Assembly: GCA_947172645.1 (NCBI GenBank)
Contig: CAMWBY010000011.1
Location: 1 to 64,000 of the forward strand
Direction of reading: 5' to 3'
DNA: 64,000 nucleotides
Origin: an uncultured Lachnospiraceae bacterium
GTDB lineage: Bacteria; Bacillota; Clostridia; Lachnospirales; Lachnospiraceae
Position numbers and translations under genes: made by a program. The number at the start of each line of letters is the position of its first letter. The stretch's first letter is position 1. The notes below the pieces were generated by a model. It was not told the DNA's origin. It ran no database searches and saw only the letters and a program-made list of their open reading frames with translations. Positions 1 through 9,096 of this stretch are shown here, in pieces.

Positions 1-20
1 ATAAATCATAAAATTTCTGT

Positions 21-69
21 AAATTTTAAAGTGCAGTGGAATTTACTTCTGCACTAGAATTTAAAATTT
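21..69. repeat. AT-rich inverted repeat downstream of the HNH gene
   Basis: Left arm AAATTTTAAA-GTGCAG (21-36) and right arm CTGCAC-TAGAA-TTTAAAATTT (49-69) are complementary apart from a 5-nt bulge. The element lies about 50 nt beyond the stop of the minus-strand HNH gene and could act as its terminator, although no clean T-run follows. It matches in style the many short palindromes at 1194-3125. Confidence 0.5.
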
Positions 70-123
70 CAAGTCAGCCTTTTATACATCCCATTCAATG
101 TCTATATCTACATCCTAAAAATT

Positions 124-1125
124 TCAACCTTCAATATATGGCCTTACTTCAAATCTCAACAGCGCATCATATACCCTCTTCGGTACTTTATTCTTATACT
201 TATCAGCCATAATCAATATATCAGCCTGTTTATGCCTTTTATATTCCTCAAATGCTTCTTCGGGTGTCCTCCAATAGGACAACCGGATTACTTCATCATG
301 ACCATATGGTTTAATCTCTCCATAATACATTTTCATTTTACTGTCATACCTTACCCCTAACGGCAAATCCATCCTCGCATTCTTCCATACTGACCTATGC
401 TTCTTGCAGTTAGACAACATCGTATTCAATGTCTGGGGAATGATACAGCATTTATCAGGCGCGTACTCTTTATTACCCTGGAACAATAAATCTTTATCAA
501 CTGCCATAGATTCACCATCACATTCATAATATTCCGCACTCCACCACTCCGCAAATGCATCCTTGTCATTCAGCCATAAATCGCACATAAAGGAACCGTT
601 CTTATCCTCATAGCACCGAATATAAATGCCATTCCAGATGGAATATGCAGCATTGGATTTCAGGGTAATATATGGTATGTATTCCTGTTGTCTGCCTAAT
701 TCCTCTACAAGCATAATCCCGCGCTGCAAATCCATATATTCTTCATTGCTTACCCAGATAAGGTTCCTGTAATAGCAATTATTCTTATCCCTGTCAATGT
801 GCCATATTTTGTTATAGTCATATGAATTTTCAAGGAAGTGCTCTGCAACTAATTTATCTGTATAGGTATCAATCTTTTTATCTATGCCACTAAGCGTATA
901 ATGTGCATAACCTGTTTTGTGCATATAGAAATTATTTCGTAGGTTATTTACCATTCGTCCATAGTTTGATAACCAATAATTATTTGTCTCATTTACCAAC
1001 ACAAATACTTCATCATTTGAAATCAATTCTATTCCTGATTTCTTAATATCCAGCACCCCTTTATCTGCTATAGATAAATACTCTTTAAATTCTTTTCTCT
1101 GTTCTAATTTCTTTTTGCTACTCAT
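124..1125 (-). CDS. HNH homing-type endonuclease (NUMOD4/HNH_3-like)
   Basis: 333-aa protein. Residues about 50-58 carry WLSNYGRM, the NUMOD4-type motif. Residues about 109-124 carry the HNH_3 signature H-x-D-x4-N-x4-R-N-L (HIDRDKNN, then RNLIW). The C-terminal third (GVRYD, then YWRTPEEAFEEYK) resembles the small C-terminal domains of phage HNH proteins. Such enzymes nick or cut DNA and are usually free-standing mobile endonucleases of phages and plasmids. The ATG at 1125 was chosen, with GAAAGGAA about 15 nt upstream; an in-frame GTG at 1185 has no ribosome site. It is the last gene seen at the left edge of an AT-rich block, and all its neighbours are on the same strand. The target is unknown. 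Confidence 0.75.
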   Translation of the reverse strand: MSSKKKLEQRKEFKEYLSIADKGVLDIKKSGIELISNDEVFVLVNETNNYWLSNYGRMVNNLRNNFYMHKTGYAHYTLSGIDKKIDTYTDKLVAEHFLENSYDYNKIWHIDRDKNNCYYRNLIWVSNEEYMDLQRGIMLVEELGRQQEYIPYITLKSNAAYSIWNGIYIRCYEDKNGSFMCDLWLNDKDAFAEWWSAEYYECDGESMAVDKDLLFQGNKEYAPDKCCIIPQTLNTMLSNCKKHRSVWKNARMDLPLGVRYDSKMKMYYGEIKPYGHDEVIRLSYWRTPEEAFEEYKRHKQADILIMADKYKNKVPKRVYDALLRFEVRPYIEG

Positions 1126-1193
1126 TTTTACTATAAAAATTCCTTTCGATATATCTTTAGATAGCCAACACAAAATCGTGTTCACTAATATTT

Positions 1194-3125
1194 GAGCATC
1201 CAGATTTGTATGCTCCGATTCCTATTCATAATAAAAGAGAGTCCAGAACAAGACTCCCTGATATAATCCAATATTCAATTGTATGTTTTCCCCAAAATTG
1301 GGGAATCTCAATTCTGCGAAACCGTGATATAACGGCTCCAAAATGGGGGACATTGTTTTCCTCCACTTGTGGGGGAAAGAATATCGCAACCATTTTAAAA
1401 GGGTTGCTTGCATCCAAAACTGGACACATCTTTTCGCCTAGAACCTGACAATTAGACCACCATGGACTAATCCATGTAATCCATACAAATTTGCAGTTGT
1501 ACCACCGTGGGACTACTTTTATACACTTCTGTGGAAAACTCAACACTTTGTAGGTGCTGAGTTTAAACCCTTCGCAAGATTTAAGGTTTTTTACTTTGAA
1601 CAGAAATAGGTTTTTCTCAAAACTAGAGAAATCTTTTATAATATCTGACTATCCAATTTTGGATAGTAAAGCCCTCAAGGAATAATCGCTGATAACTCAA
1701 ACGGTATAATCATTTCGATTGTCATTAACAAAGAACGAATTTATTTTATCAAACACCATAAAAGGATTGCTTATCAGATTTTCAGATATGCATACTATGC
1801 ACTTTAGAATCACCAGAATTAGCTGAAGGAAATTTTTCCTTGGGGTTTTATCCAAACGGAAGTATTTTTTATAAGACTTCCATTACATAAAGGGCTATAA
1901 CAAATCATTATACACCAATATATTCAGTCCTACATAATGTCTGATTCTAACGTGAAATTATTTCCAATTAGAAAATTTCATTCTGCATGTTTCAAATCAT
2001 CCAAAATAGAGAATTAAGAATTTTCGACCACATATGGGCGACTAAGTTAAACTTAGCCCGTTTACTTATGGACAATTCTGTCCAACCGTGATAACAACCG
2101 TACCTACAGGTACACACCAGTTACCCACGGGGAACCATCGTCTCACGGGACTATGGTATGTCGCATAATACCACCCACCCGAATATTTCATACTGGCAGC
2201 AGGTATTGTGTCATAGTGTCACAACCTTTGTAAAATGCTGAAATTACAGTTGTCACCACAGGACAACCATTGCCAAAAGTGATTCGTTGTCCACAGAGGA
2301 CAACACTTTCCATATTTACGGAATCTGTTTGAACCGAAAACGTATATTTTTAGGAGAAGCCCAAATTGGTATCACCGATTATGTTTCCATTGTGAGAAGT
2401 TGATTAATCCGACATCTGGAATAATACCCTGATTCAAACCGTAATTATTAGGGTTTGATTTTCTAAGGCCGCATTTCGCGCCTTTAGGCTCTGCAATTGT
2501 CAAAAGTTTTGCTTTTGCTTTCTAAAGTTGCATTTAACAACTCTTAAATTAACTAGTTTCATGATAATTTTGATTTCCCTTTTTGGAGAATCAAGTTTTT
2601 ATTTTGCCCCTTTTGAATTTACTTGTTTTCAAGGATGTAAATATTCTTTACACCCTTTACCATTTCACTTTCAAGGTAACTGCCAGTGACCTCCACATAA
2701 TCCTTCCAATCGGACTAATCGGCGAATAACCGTATATTTCAAAAGATACGCTTATAATGCGTACTCTAAAATTTTCGGGGGACGTTACAATATAGCCATC
2801 CTTATAAGGTATGTAAACCTTTGTACCTACTGAAAATAAATGTCCACGATGGACATAATACAGTTTCCCTTCAAAGGGGTATCGCGAAACGTTATAGCCC
2901 TATTAATAGTCGGAAAATCCCATCTATACATATGTGCCACAAATGGCTGCGTCAATTTTGTCGAAGCCGTACTTTTTTGTGTATGTTGAATATAAATATT
3001 ACTATGTCCTTTGAAAGCTAATGTACTGTTTACGCTCTCACTCCAATCGAAGTGTAACCGTAATTTTACAGTAGTGTCTAATTTGACGCACCTTTCATAT
3101 TTTCAGGGGGTACAAAATTTTGTAC
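1194..3125. other. Gene-free 1.9-kb array of short perfect inverted repeats (candidate origin or structured RNA)
   Basis: No ORF here has a plausible start and ribosome site. The stretch is packed with short palindromes. Examples: 1194-1215, 1288-1305 (TTCCCCAA/TTGGGGAA), 1357-1378, 1386-1407, 1413-1424, 1461-1476, 1537-1563, 1613-1631, 1648-1667 (ACTATCCA/TGGATAGT), 1826-1841, 1858-1881, 1954-1979, 2042-2056, 2070-2083, 2100-2113, 2134-2157, 2249-2267, 2286-2304, 2434-2458, 2747-2763, 2800-2809, 2841-2855 and 3110-3125. Stems are 5-10 bp and many loops are 1-7 nt. Sequences differ from one another, so this is not a direct-repeat array. GTTGTC/GACAAC pairs at 2249-2304 recur in front of the initiator-like gene at 4552-4601. 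It may be a replication origin with initiator sites or a large folded RNA. Confidence 0.6.
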
Positions 3126-3211
3126 TGCCTCAATTGAATTTAAATGCTTCTTCAATAAATATAGGGGGGTGTCTTTTTTAGCCACTACCCTACACGACAC
3201 TTTTACTTTCA

Positions 3212-4504
3212 TCAATGCAGATCATCTGTATCAATAAATTCTAAATCCTTTCCAGTAACACAAAATAACTCATAGCCGATTTTACGACCATGAGATTCAT
3301 TAATGTTTATATCATCTGTCTTGGATGATATAATATCCTGTTTTGGTGCTTCCGAATTTTTCGGAGACACCACTTTGCATGGTTCATCCTGTCCCACACA
3401 ATCAATGTTTACTAATGGTAGGTTCATTTGAACCTCACCTTCTGTAGGCATGTCCAATATTTCTTCTATAGGGAAATCAATAGGTTCTCCCCAGTTATCA
3501 TCATTATTTAAGAAATCAAACTGTTCAAAGACACTTTCATCTTTAATCTGAAACTCTAATTTCTCGACCCATCTTCCATCGCTAGCTGTCATATATTCTT
3601 GCACACGTTTTGCAGCAATTTCCTGTTGTAGTGTTCTATTCTTATTGGTAATATATTTTTGCACTTTTCTAATCGTTTCTTTGTCATATGTATCACCGTA
3701 TCCATCACTGATACGATTATAAATTTGAGCTAAACGCCTATTATTATCTGCCTGTTCTTTATTTTTCTGCGTTAGCGAGATTTTATGTTGGACACCGTAC
3801 CAATTTTCATAATTTGATGCATATTCCTCACAGGCACCCTTATCCACATATCTACTGTAACAGTTTTTAATCTGCCTTAATTTATCGCCATCACGTACCT
3901 TGTCATTACTCTTATAAATATAAATTATCTTGATTGTAGATAGAATTTCGTTATATCTAATACAAGTCCTTGGTGAAATATCCGCTTGTGATGCAATAAA
4001 TTCCATAGACATAGTTCCAATCCTGCCTTGTAACTTTCTCATATTTTTAGACCAGTTAAATGTACTTACTACTGCAACAAAGTATTTCAGCATAGAAATC
4101 TTTTTCTTCATAATCTCATTACAGCTTAAAATTATATGTACTTCATTTGGAAATATTGTTACAAACTGCTCTTTCTCCGTATCCAGATACATACTTGAAA
4201 AATCAAGGAGATATTCATTGGACATTTTGGTGCTGAAATCCTGTAATATTTTAATCACATTGGCAAGTTGTAATTCAAAAATACCCCTCTGCAATGAATC
4301 AAGGAATACTTTTTCATATTTCTCTTGTGAACCTATAAGGGTATATGCCATCCTGTTTACAGACACACAATCCACTTCTGATGATTTGTTATATAACGAA
4401 ATACTTTCATCCATTATTGTTCTTAATGCTATGTATGCCAATACACCATCTTGTGTTAAATTAAATCCTGTAACCAAATCTTTCTTCAAAAACAATTTAT
4501 CCAC
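3212..4504 (-). CDS. Winged-helix protein, putative plasmid/phage replication initiator
   Basis: 430 aa, GTG start with AGGAG 8 nt upstream. Residues about 160-200 (GTMSMEFIASQADISPRT, then IRYNEILSTIKIIYIYK) read as a winged helix-turn-helix of the kind found in Firmicutes phage and plasmid replication or primosome proteins. The residues before it (ISMLKYFVAVVSTFNW) fit the preceding helix. The C-terminal 150 residues are acidic and probably flexible. It lies directly beside the hairpin-dense region and has inverted repeats with the same GTTGTC/GACAAC motif in its own promoter region. That pattern suggests an initiator that also regulates itself, which is inference. The alternative is a transcription regulator. 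No family name can be given with certainty. Confidence 0.5.
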   Translation of the reverse strand: MDKLFLKKDLVTGFNLTQDGVLAYIALRTIMDESISLYNKSSEVDCVSVNRMAYTLIGSQEKYEKVFLDSLQRGIFELQLANVIKILQDFSTKMSNEYLLDFSSMYLDTEKEQFVTIFPNEVHIILSCNEIMKKKISMLKYFVAVVSTFNWSKNMRKLQGRIGTMSMEFIASQADISPRTCIRYNEILSTIKIIYIYKSNDKVRDGDKLRQIKNCYSRYVDKGACEEYASNYENWYGVQHKISLTQKNKEQADNNRRLAQIYNRISDGYGDTYDKETIRKVQKYITNKNRTLQQEIAAKRVQEYMTASDGRWVEKLEFQIKDESVFEQFDFLNNDDNWGEPIDFPIEEILDMPTEGEVQMNLPLVNIDCVGQDEPCKVVSPKNSEAPKQDIISSKTDDININESHGRKIGYELFCVTGKDLEFIDTDDLH

Positions 4505-4551
4505 TTTTTGTGCTCCTTTTTTATTCTTTTTTTATGCTATTTTTCTAGTGT

Positions 4552-4627
4552 GACAACTACCCCTCAAAAATGGCTATGGTTGTCCAAAATATGGTGACAA
4601 CAGGACAGATAGAATGGCCATAGTTGG
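4552..4627. promoter_or_regulatory. Nested inverted repeats in front of the initiator-like gene
   Basis: GACAAC at 4552, then GGCTATGG (4572-4579) pairing with CCATAGTT (4618-4625), and inside it GTTGTC (4579-4584) pairing with GACAAC (4596-4601). The position just upstream of the GTG start at 4504 suits an operator. The hexamer is the same as that in the palindromes at 2249-2304. Confidence 0.5.
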
Positions 4628-4711
4628 CACACTTATAAGTAAGAGATAATTAGTAAGTAAGAGAATTAGATATAGGAGAGACTCATTTGCAATGAGTTAC
4701 CCTTTCCAAAT

Positions 4712-4891
4712 CTAATTTTTCTCATATCCTTTTATTACTTCTTCTATATAGTTTTCTTTCTTAAAAATAAATACACTTCTTTTACCATCCTCATCTGTTC
4801 TGTCTGGTTTAATATCTACAATAGTAAATCCATTCTTTAATAAATTCCTTGCTAGCTTTGCTGTAAAGATTACAATTGTATTTTTCTCCAT
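4712..4891 (-). CDS. Small DUF5659-like protein
   Basis: 59 aa, ATG start with AGAAGGAG 10 nt upstream. The order of motifs (FTAKLARNLLKNGF, then DIKPD, then SVFIFKKENYIEEVIKGY) resembles the DUF5659 family of small Clostridia mobile-element proteins, whose function is unknown. It lies between the initiator-like and GIY-YIG genes. A short palindrome (4681-4697) follows its stop and could be a weak terminator. The family assignment is from memory of the pattern. Confidence 0.6.
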   Translation of the reverse strand: MEKNTIVIFTAKLARNLLKNGFTIVDIKPDRTDEDGKRSVFIFKKENYIEEVIKGYEKN

Positions 4892-4924
4892 GGGTTACTG
4901 ACTCCTTCTATGCACTTTTACATC

Positions 4925-5755
4925 TTAATTTAATATCTCTATTGCCTTATTCTCTATTTCCTGTAATGATTTATCATTTAATGCTGGAATCCAATATGCT
5001 GTATCTGATTGTTTTGTATATGGAAAATCAAAAGTATAATCTCCTATAGAGCAATCTAACATTCCACAATCCTTATGAATTGCTAAACTATTTAGCTGAT
5101 CTACTGATTTTTTAATTGTTTTATCTATGCAAATTACATCATAATCAGTATCAGACATTCTTTCAGAACAAATGGAATCCTCATATGAATAATGTACTGT
5201 TTCTTCTGGCATACACTGAATCAATACTTCTAAATCAGCTTTATCTATCAATGATAAATATGTAGGACATTTTTCTTGTAGTATTTCCATATCACATAAT
5301 ATCTTCTTATTATCCTGTAATTCAGATTTGAAACGCTTCAATATTTCTGCTTCATACATGACATCTGCCCTGTTAGGTTCTTTCCTGTTTGGATTCTCTG
5401 TCAGGAAATTTGTATATACTTTTTCATAACGATACCCATAATTGGATTCTGCATATAACCTGATCCATGTTGGATTTTTGATTAGTGCAAAATATTCTAA
5501 ATCCACATCTTCATCAATCTTGCCATTGTCATTAAATTCTGGCTGATACTTTGCAATCTCATATTGCTCATACATATATGCTTCTGTCCTGCTTCTAAAT
5601 TCTGTATAATCTACATATAAAACTTGGTTATAGCAGTAACCTCCCAAATGTCCGTGTTCAAAATGTTGTCTTAATCTTTTGAATAAATCACCACAACTAC
5701 CTATGTAAATTATCTCTTCATCTTTATTGAGAAATTTGTATACATATCCTTTCAA
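4925..5755 (-). CDS. GIY-YIG nuclease domain protein
   Basis: 276 aa, TTG start with AAGGTGG about 6 nt upstream. The first 85 residues form a GIY-YIG domain: GYVYKF, IIYIGSCGDLFKRLRQH (the YIG and Arg motifs) and YMYEQYEIAKYQPEFN with the catalytic Glu and Asn region. The rest is unfamiliar, with an acidic middle (YEDSICSERMSDTDYD). Proteins of this type cut one DNA strand and are common as selfish nucleases on phages. With the HNH and Rha/nuclease genes it makes three different nuclease folds in 7 kb. The role of the C-terminal part is unknown. Confidence 0.75.
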   Translation of the reverse strand: MKGYVYKFLNKDEEIIYIGSCGDLFKRLRQHFEHGHLGGYCYNQVLYVDYTEFRSRTEAYMYEQYEIAKYQPEFNDNGKIDEDVDLEYFALIKNPTWIRLYAESNYGYRYEKVYTNFLTENPNRKEPNRADVMYEAEILKRFKSELQDNKKILCDMEILQEKCPTYLSLIDKADLEVLIQCMPEETVHYSYEDSICSERMSDTDYDVICIDKTIKKSVDQLNSLAIHKDCGMLDCSIGDYTFDFPYTKQSDTAYWIPALNDKSLQEIENKAIEILN

Positions 5756-6371: not shown

Positions 6372-6881
6372 TCATGCGCTTTTATATAATTCTTTTGCAA
6401 TCCTTGCTATGGCACATCCACAACTCGTACCTTCATTTACTCTTATAAATTTACAATGTATTTTGTTCTCTATGTACTTCTGTCTTATTAAATCTTTATC
6501 CTTTTTATATTTATGTTCTTCTTCGTCAATTTCTATTGCAGTATTATATCGGGGAATATATAAATCTATCCTATAATTATCAACTGGATATTGCTCTATA
6601 TAATCCATATTTATTTCATTTAAGAAGTCTTCTATCTCATTCAGATATTTATACTCAAACCTTGCGGAACGAACATCATATTTGAATCTGTTCTTTATAA
6701 TATCAGCACCCATATCATCTATATCATATTGTTTTAAACATCTGCCATCTTTTGAAATATAGGAACTTTTCATAAAATATTTGGAAAGTTCAGGATTTTT
6801 CTTTGTGATTCTACCTATTGTTCTTAATATACTGTTATGTCGTTTTTTATATCTTATTGCTATTTCTCTACTGTTTGTCAA
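6372..6881 (-). CDS. Rha-like phage protein fused to a restriction-fold nuclease domain
   Basis: 169 aa. Residues 1-62 (TNSREIAIRYKKRHNSILRTI, then SSYISKDGRCLKQYDID) match the Rha phage-regulator pattern, in which an N-terminal motif of this kind precedes a short DNA-binding region. Residues about 95-165 look like a PD-(D/E)XK fold: YPVDNYRIDLYIP, then IEIDEEEHKYKKD, then RQKYIENK and FIRVNEG, close to DUF559/Vsr-type proteins (candidate metal ligands D106, E117, D119). Start is TTG at 6881, because a stop lies eight codons upstream. GGAG is 14 nt away, so the ribosome site is poor. The fusion suggests a phage regulator or nuclease; function is inferred only. Confidence 0.6.
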   Translation of the reverse strand: MTNSREIAIRYKKRHNSILRTIGRITKKNPELSKYFMKSSYISKDGRCLKQYDIDDMGADIIKNRFKYDVRSARFEYKYLNEIEDFLNEINMDYIEQYPVDNYRIDLYIPRYNTAIEIDEEEHKYKKDKDLIRQKYIENKIHCKFIRVNEGTSCGCAIARIAKELYKSA

Positions 6882-7049
6882 AATTGTTTTATCATCTCCA
6901 ATCTATATTTCTACAAATAAAAAGAAGATTGCTTAATAAAGTAACCTTCATAACTCAAAGCATATAAAATTTCCTGGTCATTCTCATTACTCGTTAAGTA
7001 TGGAAACATTTCACTCCGCACTTTTGTGGAGTCATTCTCGTCACTTTTT

Positions 7050-7334
7050 CTAATTAGCCACAAAATAATCAATCGACTTCCTAATCCTCTCCATCTCATT
7101 ACTGTAAATCCTATATGCCATATTCTTCGCTGATTCTATAGAATCATACTTTTCAGGCTGTAACCTCCTGAGACTGCCTTTACCAAAACAATACAGATAA
7201 TACTTATCCTCTTTTGGCTCATGGTTAATCCGGAATTCCATCTTGATTACACCACATAGGTTGATCTCACAATGACTGCATACAGTAACTCCGTCTGATA
7301 CAATATCTTTCCATTCCAAATCTTTGAACTGCAT
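7050..7334 (-). CDS. Hypothetical small protein
   Basis: 94 aa, ATG start with GGAG 7 nt upstream; the start is 15 nt beyond the stop of the Cys-rich ORF at 7350-7529, so the two are probably translated together. There is one CxxC-like pair (CSHCEINLC) near the N-terminus and a stretch that may bind nucleic acid (YLYCFGKGSLRRLQPEKYDSI, shown here in part). I recognise no family. It belongs to the phage or plasmid-like block by composition and strand. Confidence 0.55.
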   Translation of the reverse strand: MQFKDLEWKDIVSDGVTVCSHCEINLCGVIKMEFRINHEPKEDKYYLYCFGKGSLRRLQPEKYDSIESAKNMAYRIYSNEMERIRKSIDYFVAN

Positions 7335-7349
7335 ATAATGTCTCCTACA

Positions 7350-7529
7350 CTAATTTTTTCTTAATGGACACCATTCAGGACTTTCATCCGACAACTTACC
7401 AACACTCAATTTTCCCATATCGTCAGTTCTGTCTGGATGGTCACAATAATAAATTTTCTTACCGTAATCATACTTTTTCATATAATCACATTCAGTACAA
7501 TTATGTATTATATTATCATTTAATCCCAT
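7350..7529 (-). CDS. Small Cys-rich (zinc-ribbon-like) phage-type protein
   Basis: 59 aa, ATG start with AGGGGG about 10 nt upstream. The Cys pattern is C-x2-C near residue 11, YYCDHPDRTDDMGK in the middle and a C-terminal EWCPLRKN. Short proteins ending in an (E)WCPL motif are common in Clostridia prophages and plasmids; they probably bind zinc, and their function is unknown. It sits 17 nt downstream of HU and 15 nt upstream of the 94-aa gene in an apparent operon. Confidence 0.6.
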   Translation of the reverse strand: MGLNDNIIHNCTECDYMKKYDYGKKIYYCDHPDRTDDMGKLSVGKLSDESPEWCPLRKN

Positions 7530-7546
7530 ATGTACCTATCCCCCTG

Positions 7547-7828
7547 TCACTCTTCTATCTTGTCTGTAAGCGTCTCACTCGCATAGAATCTCATCTTCTT
7601 ATGTTCTGGGATAGTACAAATCTCCCCGCTTAATGGGCTCCTGCATATTTTCTCTTTATAAGTCTTCATTTCAAACCGTCCAAACCCTTTTATCATCACT
7701 TTTTCATCCTCATCCATGCAGTCCAGGAGCGTTTCGATAAATAATTCAAGCCCCCTCCTGGCCTCCTTCTTGGTGATGCCACCTGTCTCCGCCATCCTGT
7801 CTATAAATTCTTTCTTAAGTACTGACAT
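7547..7828 (-). CDS. HU/IHF-family DNA-binding protein
   Basis: 93 aa, about the normal HU length. The N-terminal helices (KKEFIDRMAETGGITKKEARRGLELFIETLLDCM) and the saddle (EKVMIKGFGRFEMK) are clear. The usual arm consensus GRNPxTG is replaced by ICRSPLSGEIC, so the DNA-bending arm is divergent and carries two Cys. ATG start with GGAG 8 nt upstream. Its place in the AT-rich block suggests the element's own nucleoid protein, used in recombination or origin function, and not the host HU. Confidence 0.85.
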   Translation of the reverse strand: MSVLKKEFIDRMAETGGITKKEARRGLELFIETLLDCMDEDEKVMIKGFGRFEMKTYKEKICRSPLSGEICTIPEHKKMRFYASETLTDKIEE

Positions 7829-7847
7829 TATATTTCTCCTTCCTTTC

Positions 7848-8285
7848 TTATGTTCTCACTGAAAACCCTTTGCTTTTCAAGTAATCCGTTGCTAATTTCA
7901 ATAGTTCTCCGTTACTCACTGTATTATCAATCGTATCCTGCCATACATGGGGCTTGTGGTCTACTTCCATGCCTCCATGAAGACCTTCATTACTCCACTT
8001 TGCCACCTGATAACCAGATACATTCCGGTAACCGTCCAAAGAATCATAATCAATATATACTCTTGCCCGGACACCGCCTTTATACGGCTGCGCATCTACT
8101 TTGACTGCCGAATGCAGAAAATCCAGTGTCCTCTGGTAGCTTGATGGGTCATAACCTGCATAATAATCCTGTAGGAAATAATTCAGCGTCTCATATACCC
8201 GCTCTGCCAGCTGGTCTGTCATTTTCAATAATACCGACTGCAATGCCTTTGATAATTCTTTCATGTTTCTTACGTGTACTGCCAT
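7848..8285 (-). CDS. Phage HK97 gp10-like protein
   Basis: 145 aa, ATG start with GGGAG 8 nt upstream; this start was preferred to one nine codons upstream. The layout (MKELSKALQSVLLKM, a tyrosine-rich turn YYAGYDPSSYQRT, then YKGGVRARVYID and QVAKWSNEGLHGG) resembles the HK97 gp10/neck or tail-completion family of phages, which also turn up alone on mobile elements. No other structural genes are visible in the window. It overlaps the cold-shock gene by 95 bp. The assignment is moderate. Confidence 0.5.
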   Translation of the reverse strand: MAVHVRNMKELSKALQSVLLKMTDQLAERVYETLNYFLQDYYAGYDPSSYQRTLDFLHSAVKVDAQPYKGGVRARVYIDYDSLDGYRNVSGYQVAKWSNEGLHGGMEVDHKPHVWQDTIDNTVSNGELLKLATDYLKSKGFSVRT

Positions 8286-8499
8286 GTGTTCTTCTCCCTT
8301 CTGCCGCTTCAATTACTATGATATTTTTCGCATTGTAATCACTTCTGTCATTCTGAAATGATTTAAAAAATACATAATAGCCAGAATCAATGCATTCACC
8401 TTTTAAATTTGAGTGATGAAGAAAATATGTGTTGCCATCGTCACCTCTAATAAATCCATATCCCCTGTCATAGTAATATCTTGTTATCTTTCCGAACAA
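8191..8499 (-). CDS. Cold-shock domain protein with C-terminal basic tail
   Basis: 102 aa, TTG start with a full AAGGAGG 8 nt upstream. Residues 1-65 are an OB-fold cold-shock domain (GKITRYYYDRGYGFIRGDD, then YFLHHSNLKG) that holds the RNP1-like GYGFI and a substituted RNP2 (YFLHHS). The tail (RRTHGSTRKKHER) is basic. It binds single-stranded nucleic acid by family; in this setting it may act in phage or plasmid gene control. The last 95 bp overlap the gp10-like gene in another frame, so the tail may be an overprinted extension. It is the first gene of the minus-strand block. Confidence 0.7.
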   Translation of the reverse strand: MFGKITRYYYDRGYGFIRGDDGNTYFLHHSNLKGECIDSGYYVFFKSFQNDRSDYNAKNIIVIEAAEGRRTHGSTRKKHERIIKGIAVGIIENDRPAGRAGI

Positions 8500-8892: not shown

Positions 8893-8902
8893 TTCTTTTA
8901 AA

Positions 8903-8976
8903 TAGCGAGAGGGGGACTTGAACCCTCAACACTACGGGTATGAACCGTATGCTCTAGCCAGCTGAGCTATCTCGCC
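8903..8976 (-). tRNA. tRNA-Met (CAT), elongator type
   Basis: Cloverleaf fits: acceptor GGCGAGA with TCTCGCT (G1-U72 wobble as in bacterial elongator tRNA-Met), D-arm GCTC/GAGC, anticodon stem TACGG/CCGTA around TTCATAC, T-arm GAGGG TTCAAGT CCCCC with one A-C mismatch. Discriminator A; CCA is not encoded. Second gene of the two-tRNA operon. Confidence 0.95.
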
Positions 8977-9017
8977 ATATTTATTTATAAAGGATACCAA
9001 TCGGATATCCAATAAAC

Positions 9018-9090
9018 TGGGGCCTATAGGGCTCGAACCTATGACCCTCTGCTTGTAAGGCAGATGCTCTCCCAGCTGAGCTAAGACCCC
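9018..9090 (-). tRNA. tRNA-Val (TAC)
   Basis: Acceptor GGGGTCT with AGGCCCC, D-arm GCTC/GAGC, anticodon stem TCTGC/GCAGA around CTTACAA, T-arm ATAGG/CCTAT. Discriminator A; CCA is not encoded. It is 41 nt upstream of tRNA-Met. Confidence 0.95.
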
Positions 9091-9096
9091 ATTTCT

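Follow-up and report, generated by a model that had tools for sequence, protein, structure and literature searches.

A probable large structured RNA encoded next to an HNH endonuclease gene in phage-like elements of Lachnospiraceae

The window analysed here consists of 64,000 nucleotides of DNA from an uncultured Lachnospiraceae bacterium (GenBank assembly GCA_947172645.1, contig CAMWBY010000011.1, positions 1 to 64,000 of the forward strand). Positions 1194–3125 are crowded with short palindromes, and this region very probably encodes a structured RNA on the minus strand. It lies between the gene for an upstream neighbour, termed P430, and the gene for an HNH endonuclease. On balance, sequence comparisons favour a structured RNA of about 1.9 kb that belongs to a temperate-phage-like element and would act in trans. 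They also support a predicted layout of dozens of local hairpins and of conserved core modules, with variable stretches between the modules and a terminator of its own ahead of the HNH gene.

An earlier, sequence-only reading of the window had described a dense array of mutually different short palindromes in a stretch without genes, and had proposed a replication origin or a large ornate RNA. The palindromes were counted as perfect Watson–Crick stems with loops of 0–12 nucleotides, with 60 dinucleotide shuffles as the null, and the density was borne out. In 1194–3125, 39 inverted repeats have a stem of 5 bp or longer (20.8 ± 3.6 in shuffles, maximum 27), 22 a stem of 6 bp or longer (7.4 ± 2.2, maximum 13) and eight a stem of 7 bp or longer (2.0 ± 1.4, maximum 5), each number being above all 60 shuffles. 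Stems of at least 8 bp (3 vs 0.6, maximum 3) or at least 9 bp (1 vs 0.17, maximum 2) show no excess beyond the shuffled range. Since shuffled sequence of the same composition gives fewer stems, the proposal survives this comparison, and a chance origin of the palindromes is ruled out by the excess. When the 64 kb are divided into 1.9-kb segments in steps of 950 bases, the first three segments are the densest of the whole window, with 8, 10 and 7 stems of at least 7 bp, and all later segments have 0–5. The inverted repeats listed do differ from one another, which speaks against a CRISPR (clustered regularly interspaced short palindromic repeats) or a simple iteron array, although no dedicated search for direct repeats was made.

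That the region is free of genes has also held up. The longest open reading frame (ORF) falls inside the range of 30 shuffles in all 22 copies tested. A minus-strand ORF of 106 amino acids (1226–1546) is matched by homologues in short pieces only, mostly with stops or changed frames. A protein-coding gene in the 1.9 kb is rejected on the ORF lengths and the non-conserved 106-amino-acid frame, and the region shows the lack of coding capacity expected of a large structured non-coding RNA.

A DNA search for homologues in 299 genomes of the family matched six besides the window's own: several blocks in G255, G264 and G273, a 72-bp block in G176, and only 33 bp in G157 and G279. A scan of genome contigs with an HNH pattern gave 66 loci, and many of these have collinear pieces of the window region between the HNH gene and either P430 or a Phd-Doc pair; the conservation check suggested by the sequence-only reading therefore came out positive, as homologues carry collinear conserved blocks. 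The conservation alignment uses 22 of 27 intervals (without L029, L034, L038, L043 and L061). Modules D2 and D3 (Table 1) each served as the source of a covariance model, termed R1 and R2 respectively, and the models were run on 63 of the 66 HNH loci (not L089–L091), with six of the 80 viral HNH loci (L093–L172). R1, R2 or both match at E ≤ 0.01 in 28 of the 63. The 33-bp matches in G157 and G279 (loci L025 and L026) are matched by neither model. R1 matches were found in 4 of 194 relatives of G264, one of them with three copies; G995 has three RNA copies on three contigs (L199, L202 and L203). With duplicates removed, the total is 33 copies, some full and some partial. They comprise the window's own, those at the 28 loci, that of viral contig L175 and a single additional one from each of G381, G967 and G995. 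Carriers of the 28 loci are Lachnospiraceae or are loosely labelled (Clostridia bacterium, Bacterium, uncultured bacterium), and copies are present in several named isolates, e.g. Parablautia muri, Petralouisia muris and Acetatifactor muris; Lachnospiraceae bacterium A2 is another cultured carrier. Under stricter filters and with thin sampling, R2 in 295 genomes of the order and R1 in 299 genomes of the phylum found the window only. Searches of phage records with 5 kb of the DNA and with P430 gave no match. Two DNA patterns run on viral contigs returned the two known viral carriers and a GC-rich contig, L197, which has no model match and is taken as a chance find.

Several lines of evidence point to RNA, and to one strand. 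Folding of 900 nucleotides of the sense strand in eight of the 27 copies (the window and seven relatives) gave z-scores of −3.9 to −10.2 relative to dinucleotide shuffles in all eight, compared with −0.6 to −2.5 for five control stretches. Hairpins with 7 or more pairs and a single wobble, read on the minus strand, contain 112 G-U and 44 A-C wobbles over 24 copies (24 of 27 intervals, without L029, L034 and L061), where 10 shuffles gave 16–40 G-U and 19–30 A-C; the counts are not independent because the copies are related. The word CAGAATTG is found 34 times on the sense strand of the 27 intervals and not once on the other, and in several cases it is the loop end of a hairpin. These asymmetries support the minus strand as the putative functional strand.

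The modules follow one another on the minus strand, 5′ to 3′, in the order D1, D1b, Dm, D2, D2b, D3 and terminator (Table 1); the stretches between core modules are kept in few copies. Aligned intervals of the P430-to-HNH type range from 729 to 2098 nucleotides, although these lengths are rough, as the starts were placed manually in several loci. At the 3′ end, a terminator hairpin of at least 7 pairs forms in all 20 homologous stretches folded, with 14 distinct 5′ arms (20 of 22 pattern finds; L070 and L076 were left out as mis-anchored), and five further copies, folded separately, have a different terminator type of 13 pairs. Beyond the terminator, a short hairpin-containing leader precedes the HNH gene. 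The extent given by the sequence-only reading can thus be refined: the RNA probably runs from about 3125 to 1233, and the palindrome at 1194–1215 falls outside it, in the leader of the HNH gene. The 5′ end is placed near 3125, where conservation begins in P430-bearing copies, because no promoter scored better than chance.

Table 1. Predicted RNA gene, its modules and neighbouring features in the window
Feature	Position	Strand	Basis
Probable large structured non-coding RNA gene, ~1.9 kb	1233..3125 (read 3125 to 1233)	−	Repeat excess, collinear homologues, folding, G-U asymmetry
Conserved 5′ block D1	2942..3015	−	Conservation profile, block alignment; pairs not counted
Conserved block D1b	2666..2765	−	Conservation profile, 17-sequence block alignment; pairs not counted
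Core module Dm, two hairpins	2284..2328	−	Share of paired cells in 15 sequences (see text)
Core module D2, ends in small hairpin with C-G/U-G exchange	2100..2225	−	Source of model R1
Core module D2b, hairpins with conserved flanks	1484..1543	−	Alignment A14, 14 sequences; pairs not counted
Core module D3, four hairpins	1271..1380	−	Alignments A4/A6, covariation, model matches; source of model R2
Rho-independent terminator, RNA 3′ end	1233..1260	−	Pattern scan, folding of homologous stretches
HNH endonuclease gene, 353 amino acids	124..1185	−	Directly past RNA terminator; PHROG 953 HNH endonuclease, E 1.2e-33
P430, upstream neighbour, predicted winged-helix-type DNA-binding protein	3212..4504	−	AlphaFold2 model, Foldseek
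HU-like protein of same element	7547..7828	−	Pfam Bac_DNA_binding, E 7.3e-22; cluster in 20 of 31 loci
p154, conserved element protein	7848..8312	−	Cluster in 17 of 31 loci
tRNA-Met and tRNA-Val genes beside element	8902..9091	−	ARAGORN, Rfam

Covariation, which the sequence-only reading had proposed as a check, is clear in D3. For 15 pairs named by hand in 23 copies, 26 cells show double changes, as against 9.9 ± 2.8 in column shuffles and 6.9 ± 4.3 under a tree-based null, and none of 500 replicates of either null reaches the observed number; sliding the partners gives 3–14 such cells. Alignment A6 holds 23 of the 26 D3 rows (without L038, L058 and L084), and A7 holds 21 of the 23 D2 rows (without L035 and L057). 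In D2, 89% of cells are paired, a share reached by none of 500 tree nulls, and in Dm 97% are paired in 15 sequences. D3 therefore shows conserved structure with covariation, whereas D2 and Dm show no excess of double changes.

A number of observations weigh against a single conserved, trans-acting RNA. In D3 itself, 7 of 500 tree nulls have at least as large a share of paired cells as the 84% observed, and 84 of 500 column shuffles match the number of pair types. The count omits the first D3 hairpin, since the sequence alignment slips at that point, and the pairs were set by hand on sequences of the same family, so that the test favours them. Double changes are at the chance level in D2 (7 vs 6.6) and in Dm (2 vs 1.2). 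All-pairs tests, which are more demanding than counts on named pairs, give nothing clear: no pair reaches E ≤ 0.2 in D2 or D3, and in the whole alignment six pairs have E < 0.5, of which four are canonical in under 80% of cases. Inside the RNA, the best hit is the terminator pair 1255/1240, canonical in 16 of 21. Folding of the opposite strand is also low (z −3.2 to −8.6), as the palindromes force it to be. The promoter search found 15 where shuffles gave 16.0. R1 matches are rare, in 6 of 397 genomes of the family, the window's own included. Finally, an HNH relative is always found 3′ of the RNA, which would also fit a role in cis.

The palindromes might act at the DNA level instead, as a replication origin or as a partition or recombination site, through cruciforms or through palindromes bound by protein, next to the possibly initiator-like P430. 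The palindromes are near-perfect, several having loops of 0–2, and one carrier looks circular. P430 has no match to a curated family, and its AlphaFold2 model (mean predicted local distance difference test score 69.7, below 50 in the last third) has winged-helix-like parts. Foldseek gives nothing at E ≤ 0.001 for this model; the best matches are eukaryotic winged-helix proteins (E 0.003), and plasmid initiator domains follow weakly at E 0.05–0.13. P430 may therefore be a replication protein, judging by the predicted fold. However, the excess of G-U over A-C and the one-sided distribution of CAGAATTG are strand-specific, the D3 hairpins covary rather than hold one binding-site sequence, and there is a terminator at one end. 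In addition, the RNA models match nothing in L018, L173 and L174, loci in which the sequence downstream of P430 can be seen. The origin proposed by the sequence-only reading is disfavoured as the cause of the palindromes by the strand asymmetry, despite the weak initiator matches of P430, and a DNA element of any of these kinds is highly improbable.

Another way to account for the hairpins is a stack of terminators or attenuators that limits read-through from P430 into the HNH gene, with no single folded RNA. Six terminator-like hairpins are found in 1100–4700, relative to 1.5 ± 1.2 in shuffles, and the minus strand carries five of the six, including one located within P430. Such a role has no need for conserved blocks between hairpins or for an order of modules maintained over 1–2 kb, and it has very little probability.

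The strongest alternative to a trans-acting RNA is a partnership with the HNH gene. The RNA could then be a 5′ leader of great length, or it could bind the HNH protein; alternatively, the two genes could form a joint homing cassette, with the RNA gene being spread by the endonuclease. In all 11 copies that R1 detected in whole genomes, an HNH relative lies directly 3′ of the RNA, although HNH had served as bait for some of the copies from which R1 itself was built. Genes for HNH-type nucleases are also described at boundaries of phage exchange (PMC10448857). The window's HNH protein itself has a Pfam HNH_3 match below the family cut-off. It should be pointed out, however, that a strong terminator stands between the RNA and the HNH gene, and that the RNA is detected in fewer than half of the HNH loci scanned, leaving 35 of 63 with HNH relatives and no detectable RNA. 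At L182, in the complete genome G381, the HNH frame (6995–8008) contains two in-frame stops, and the RNA modules are still recognisable, with model scores of 88 and 91 bits. In G967 only residues 17–115 of a 354-residue HNH relative are matched. Usual leaders are far shorter than 1.9 kb, which counts against the leader version. A partnership of this kind is unlikely, but less so than the two alternatives above.

Two other observations were made near the HNH gene. Pistol ribozymes are found 3′ of it in two carriers (L065:14291–14362 and L073:12967–13039). Past the HNH gene at L027:9122–11665 is a NACHT/STAND-type ATPase with pentapeptide repeats, which is possibly defence-related; its cluster is present in 9 loci.

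The sequence-only reading had named the GOLLD/ROOL class as a candidate. As to the kind of RNA this is supported, by the homologues, the wobbles, the D3 covariation, the terminator and the phage-like setting; as to membership it is not. A search of Rfam 15 gave no match in the RNA region of the window at gathering scores, to GOLLD, ROOL or any other family (three tRNAs were found elsewhere), and none in the RNA of nine homologous loci, where five tRNAs and the two pistol ribozymes were found. At E ≤ 5 in positions 1–5000 there are only four sub-threshold matches, to snR39, Histone3, IS009 and RSV_RNA. A known Rfam family is thus rejected for the window and the nine loci.

Comparison with individual families shows both likenesses and differences. 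ROOL (Rumen-Originating, Ornate, Large) RNA is likewise a large ornate RNA of prophages and phages. It is known also from a Lactobacillus megaplasmid, and sizes of 659 and 520 nucleotides are given in the passages of PMC12286853 and PMC5643018 used here, as against about 1.9 kb for the present RNA. ROOL is further characterised by a homo-oligomeric RNA nanocage. Phage- or plasmid-like carriage, as in ROOL, is seen in the two carriers examined; there is no tRNA island in the window, and the gene downstream encodes an HNH protein. GOLLD resembles the present RNA in that conservation extends furthest across copies in the 3′ portion; many GOLLD members exceed 800 nucleotides according to those passages, as against about 1.9 kb here. 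Proximity to phage tRNAs, a trait of GOLLD, is not seen here: the nearest tRNA gene in the window starts at 8902, about 5.8 kb off. Of the other carrier loci scanned, L027 and L182 also have tRNA genes beside the element, and six have none (L063, L065, L030, L037, L073 and L069). OLE is also a large ornate RNA of Gram-positive anaerobes, but is about 600 nucleotides in length and forms a ribonucleoprotein complex with known proteins.

HEARO (HNH endonuclease-associated RNA and ORF) is a short structured RNA beside an HNH ORF that encodes a RuvC-HNH RNA-guided nuclease. The present RNA also adjoins an HNH ORF, but the RuvC-like plus HNH combination of HEARO and the IsrB-IscB omega RNAs is absent, as the matches are to HNH families or families of unknown function only. 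In the open-access literature, with subscription papers and supplements outside the search, no paper describing such an RNA was found. Because of this and the missing Rfam match, the RNA is classified here as a new family, though one whose kind is known, separate from GOLLD, ROOL, OLE and HEARO. Microbiome RNA candidates of 27–219 bp are reported in PMC8040213, and pieces of the 1.9-kb RNA could be among them.

In the window, the element that carries the RNA also has genes for a GIY-YIG endonuclease (4925–5755) and for a Rha/REase-like fusion (6372–6881), and the site of the tRNA-Met and tRNA-Val genes may be its attachment side. A Phd-Doc toxin-antitoxin pair is located between P430 and the RNA in other loci (L041:1727–2104, L070:5210–5545 and others), the Doc-like cluster being found in 6 loci and the Phd-like in 7. 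In L173, L174 and L018, which lack the RNA, a P430 relative closely precedes genes for the small and large terminase subunits, and a capsid-like gene is present in L173 and L019 (names by eye and by similarity among contigs).

One viral carrier is contig IMGVR_UViG_3300006217_002453 (L175 with L186–L188), of 60,674 bp. Its identical 77-bp ends, and P430-like frames at both ends (the C-terminal part found by tblastn, the N-terminal by eye), suggest a circular molecule of about 60.6 kb. Encoded on it are tape-measure, large serine recombinase, TubZ-like, ClpX-like and ParB-like proteins, as well as a polymerase of the RNA-dependent RNA polymerase (RdRP) family PF05183, which includes YonO of phage SPbeta. 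The RNA region of KE159636 (G397:C1) shares the tape-measure, polymerase and ParB-like genes with this contig. The capsid, portal and terminase proteins of phage contig L173 have no match in either carrier, and its polymerase is distantly shared with them at 24% identity. In G404, no capsid or terminase is among the PHROG matches listed, which cover 44 of 48 plus-strand frames and, in one scan, 25 of 41 families. The circle, in which neither capsid nor terminase was found, may be a satellite element, or else a phage whose capsid genes have diverged strongly. A conjugative element as the general carrier is rejected, as a type IV secretion system coupling gene (PF02534) is found about 7 kb from the RNA in G381, but there is none near the RNA copies in KE159636 and G367:C1, and matches in other carriers are unmapped relative to the RNA.

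The RNA would be transcribed either from a promoter of its own or by transcription continuing from P430 upstream. Acting in trans, it might work as a large scaffold or structural RNA in the life cycle of the element. Replication, maintenance or lytic development are candidate stages, as proposed for GOLLD and ROOL. A bolder proposal, offered only tentatively, is that of a new class of giant ornate RNA, longer than the sizes given for OLE, ROOL and GOLLD in the passages cited, and made by phage-like elements that encode their own RdRP/YonO-family polymerase. Such an RNA may self-assemble into an RNA particle and be tied to an HNH protein that spreads or uses it.

Few large structured phage RNAs are recognised, and the present one would add another family, larger and with no apparent relation to them, of which 33 copies, full or partial, are available. 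It may offer a new system in which to look for a principle shared by big phage RNAs, be it RNA-only particles, capture of ribosomes or tRNAs, or control of replication. The steady position upstream of an HNH endonuclease gene would provide a handle on function.
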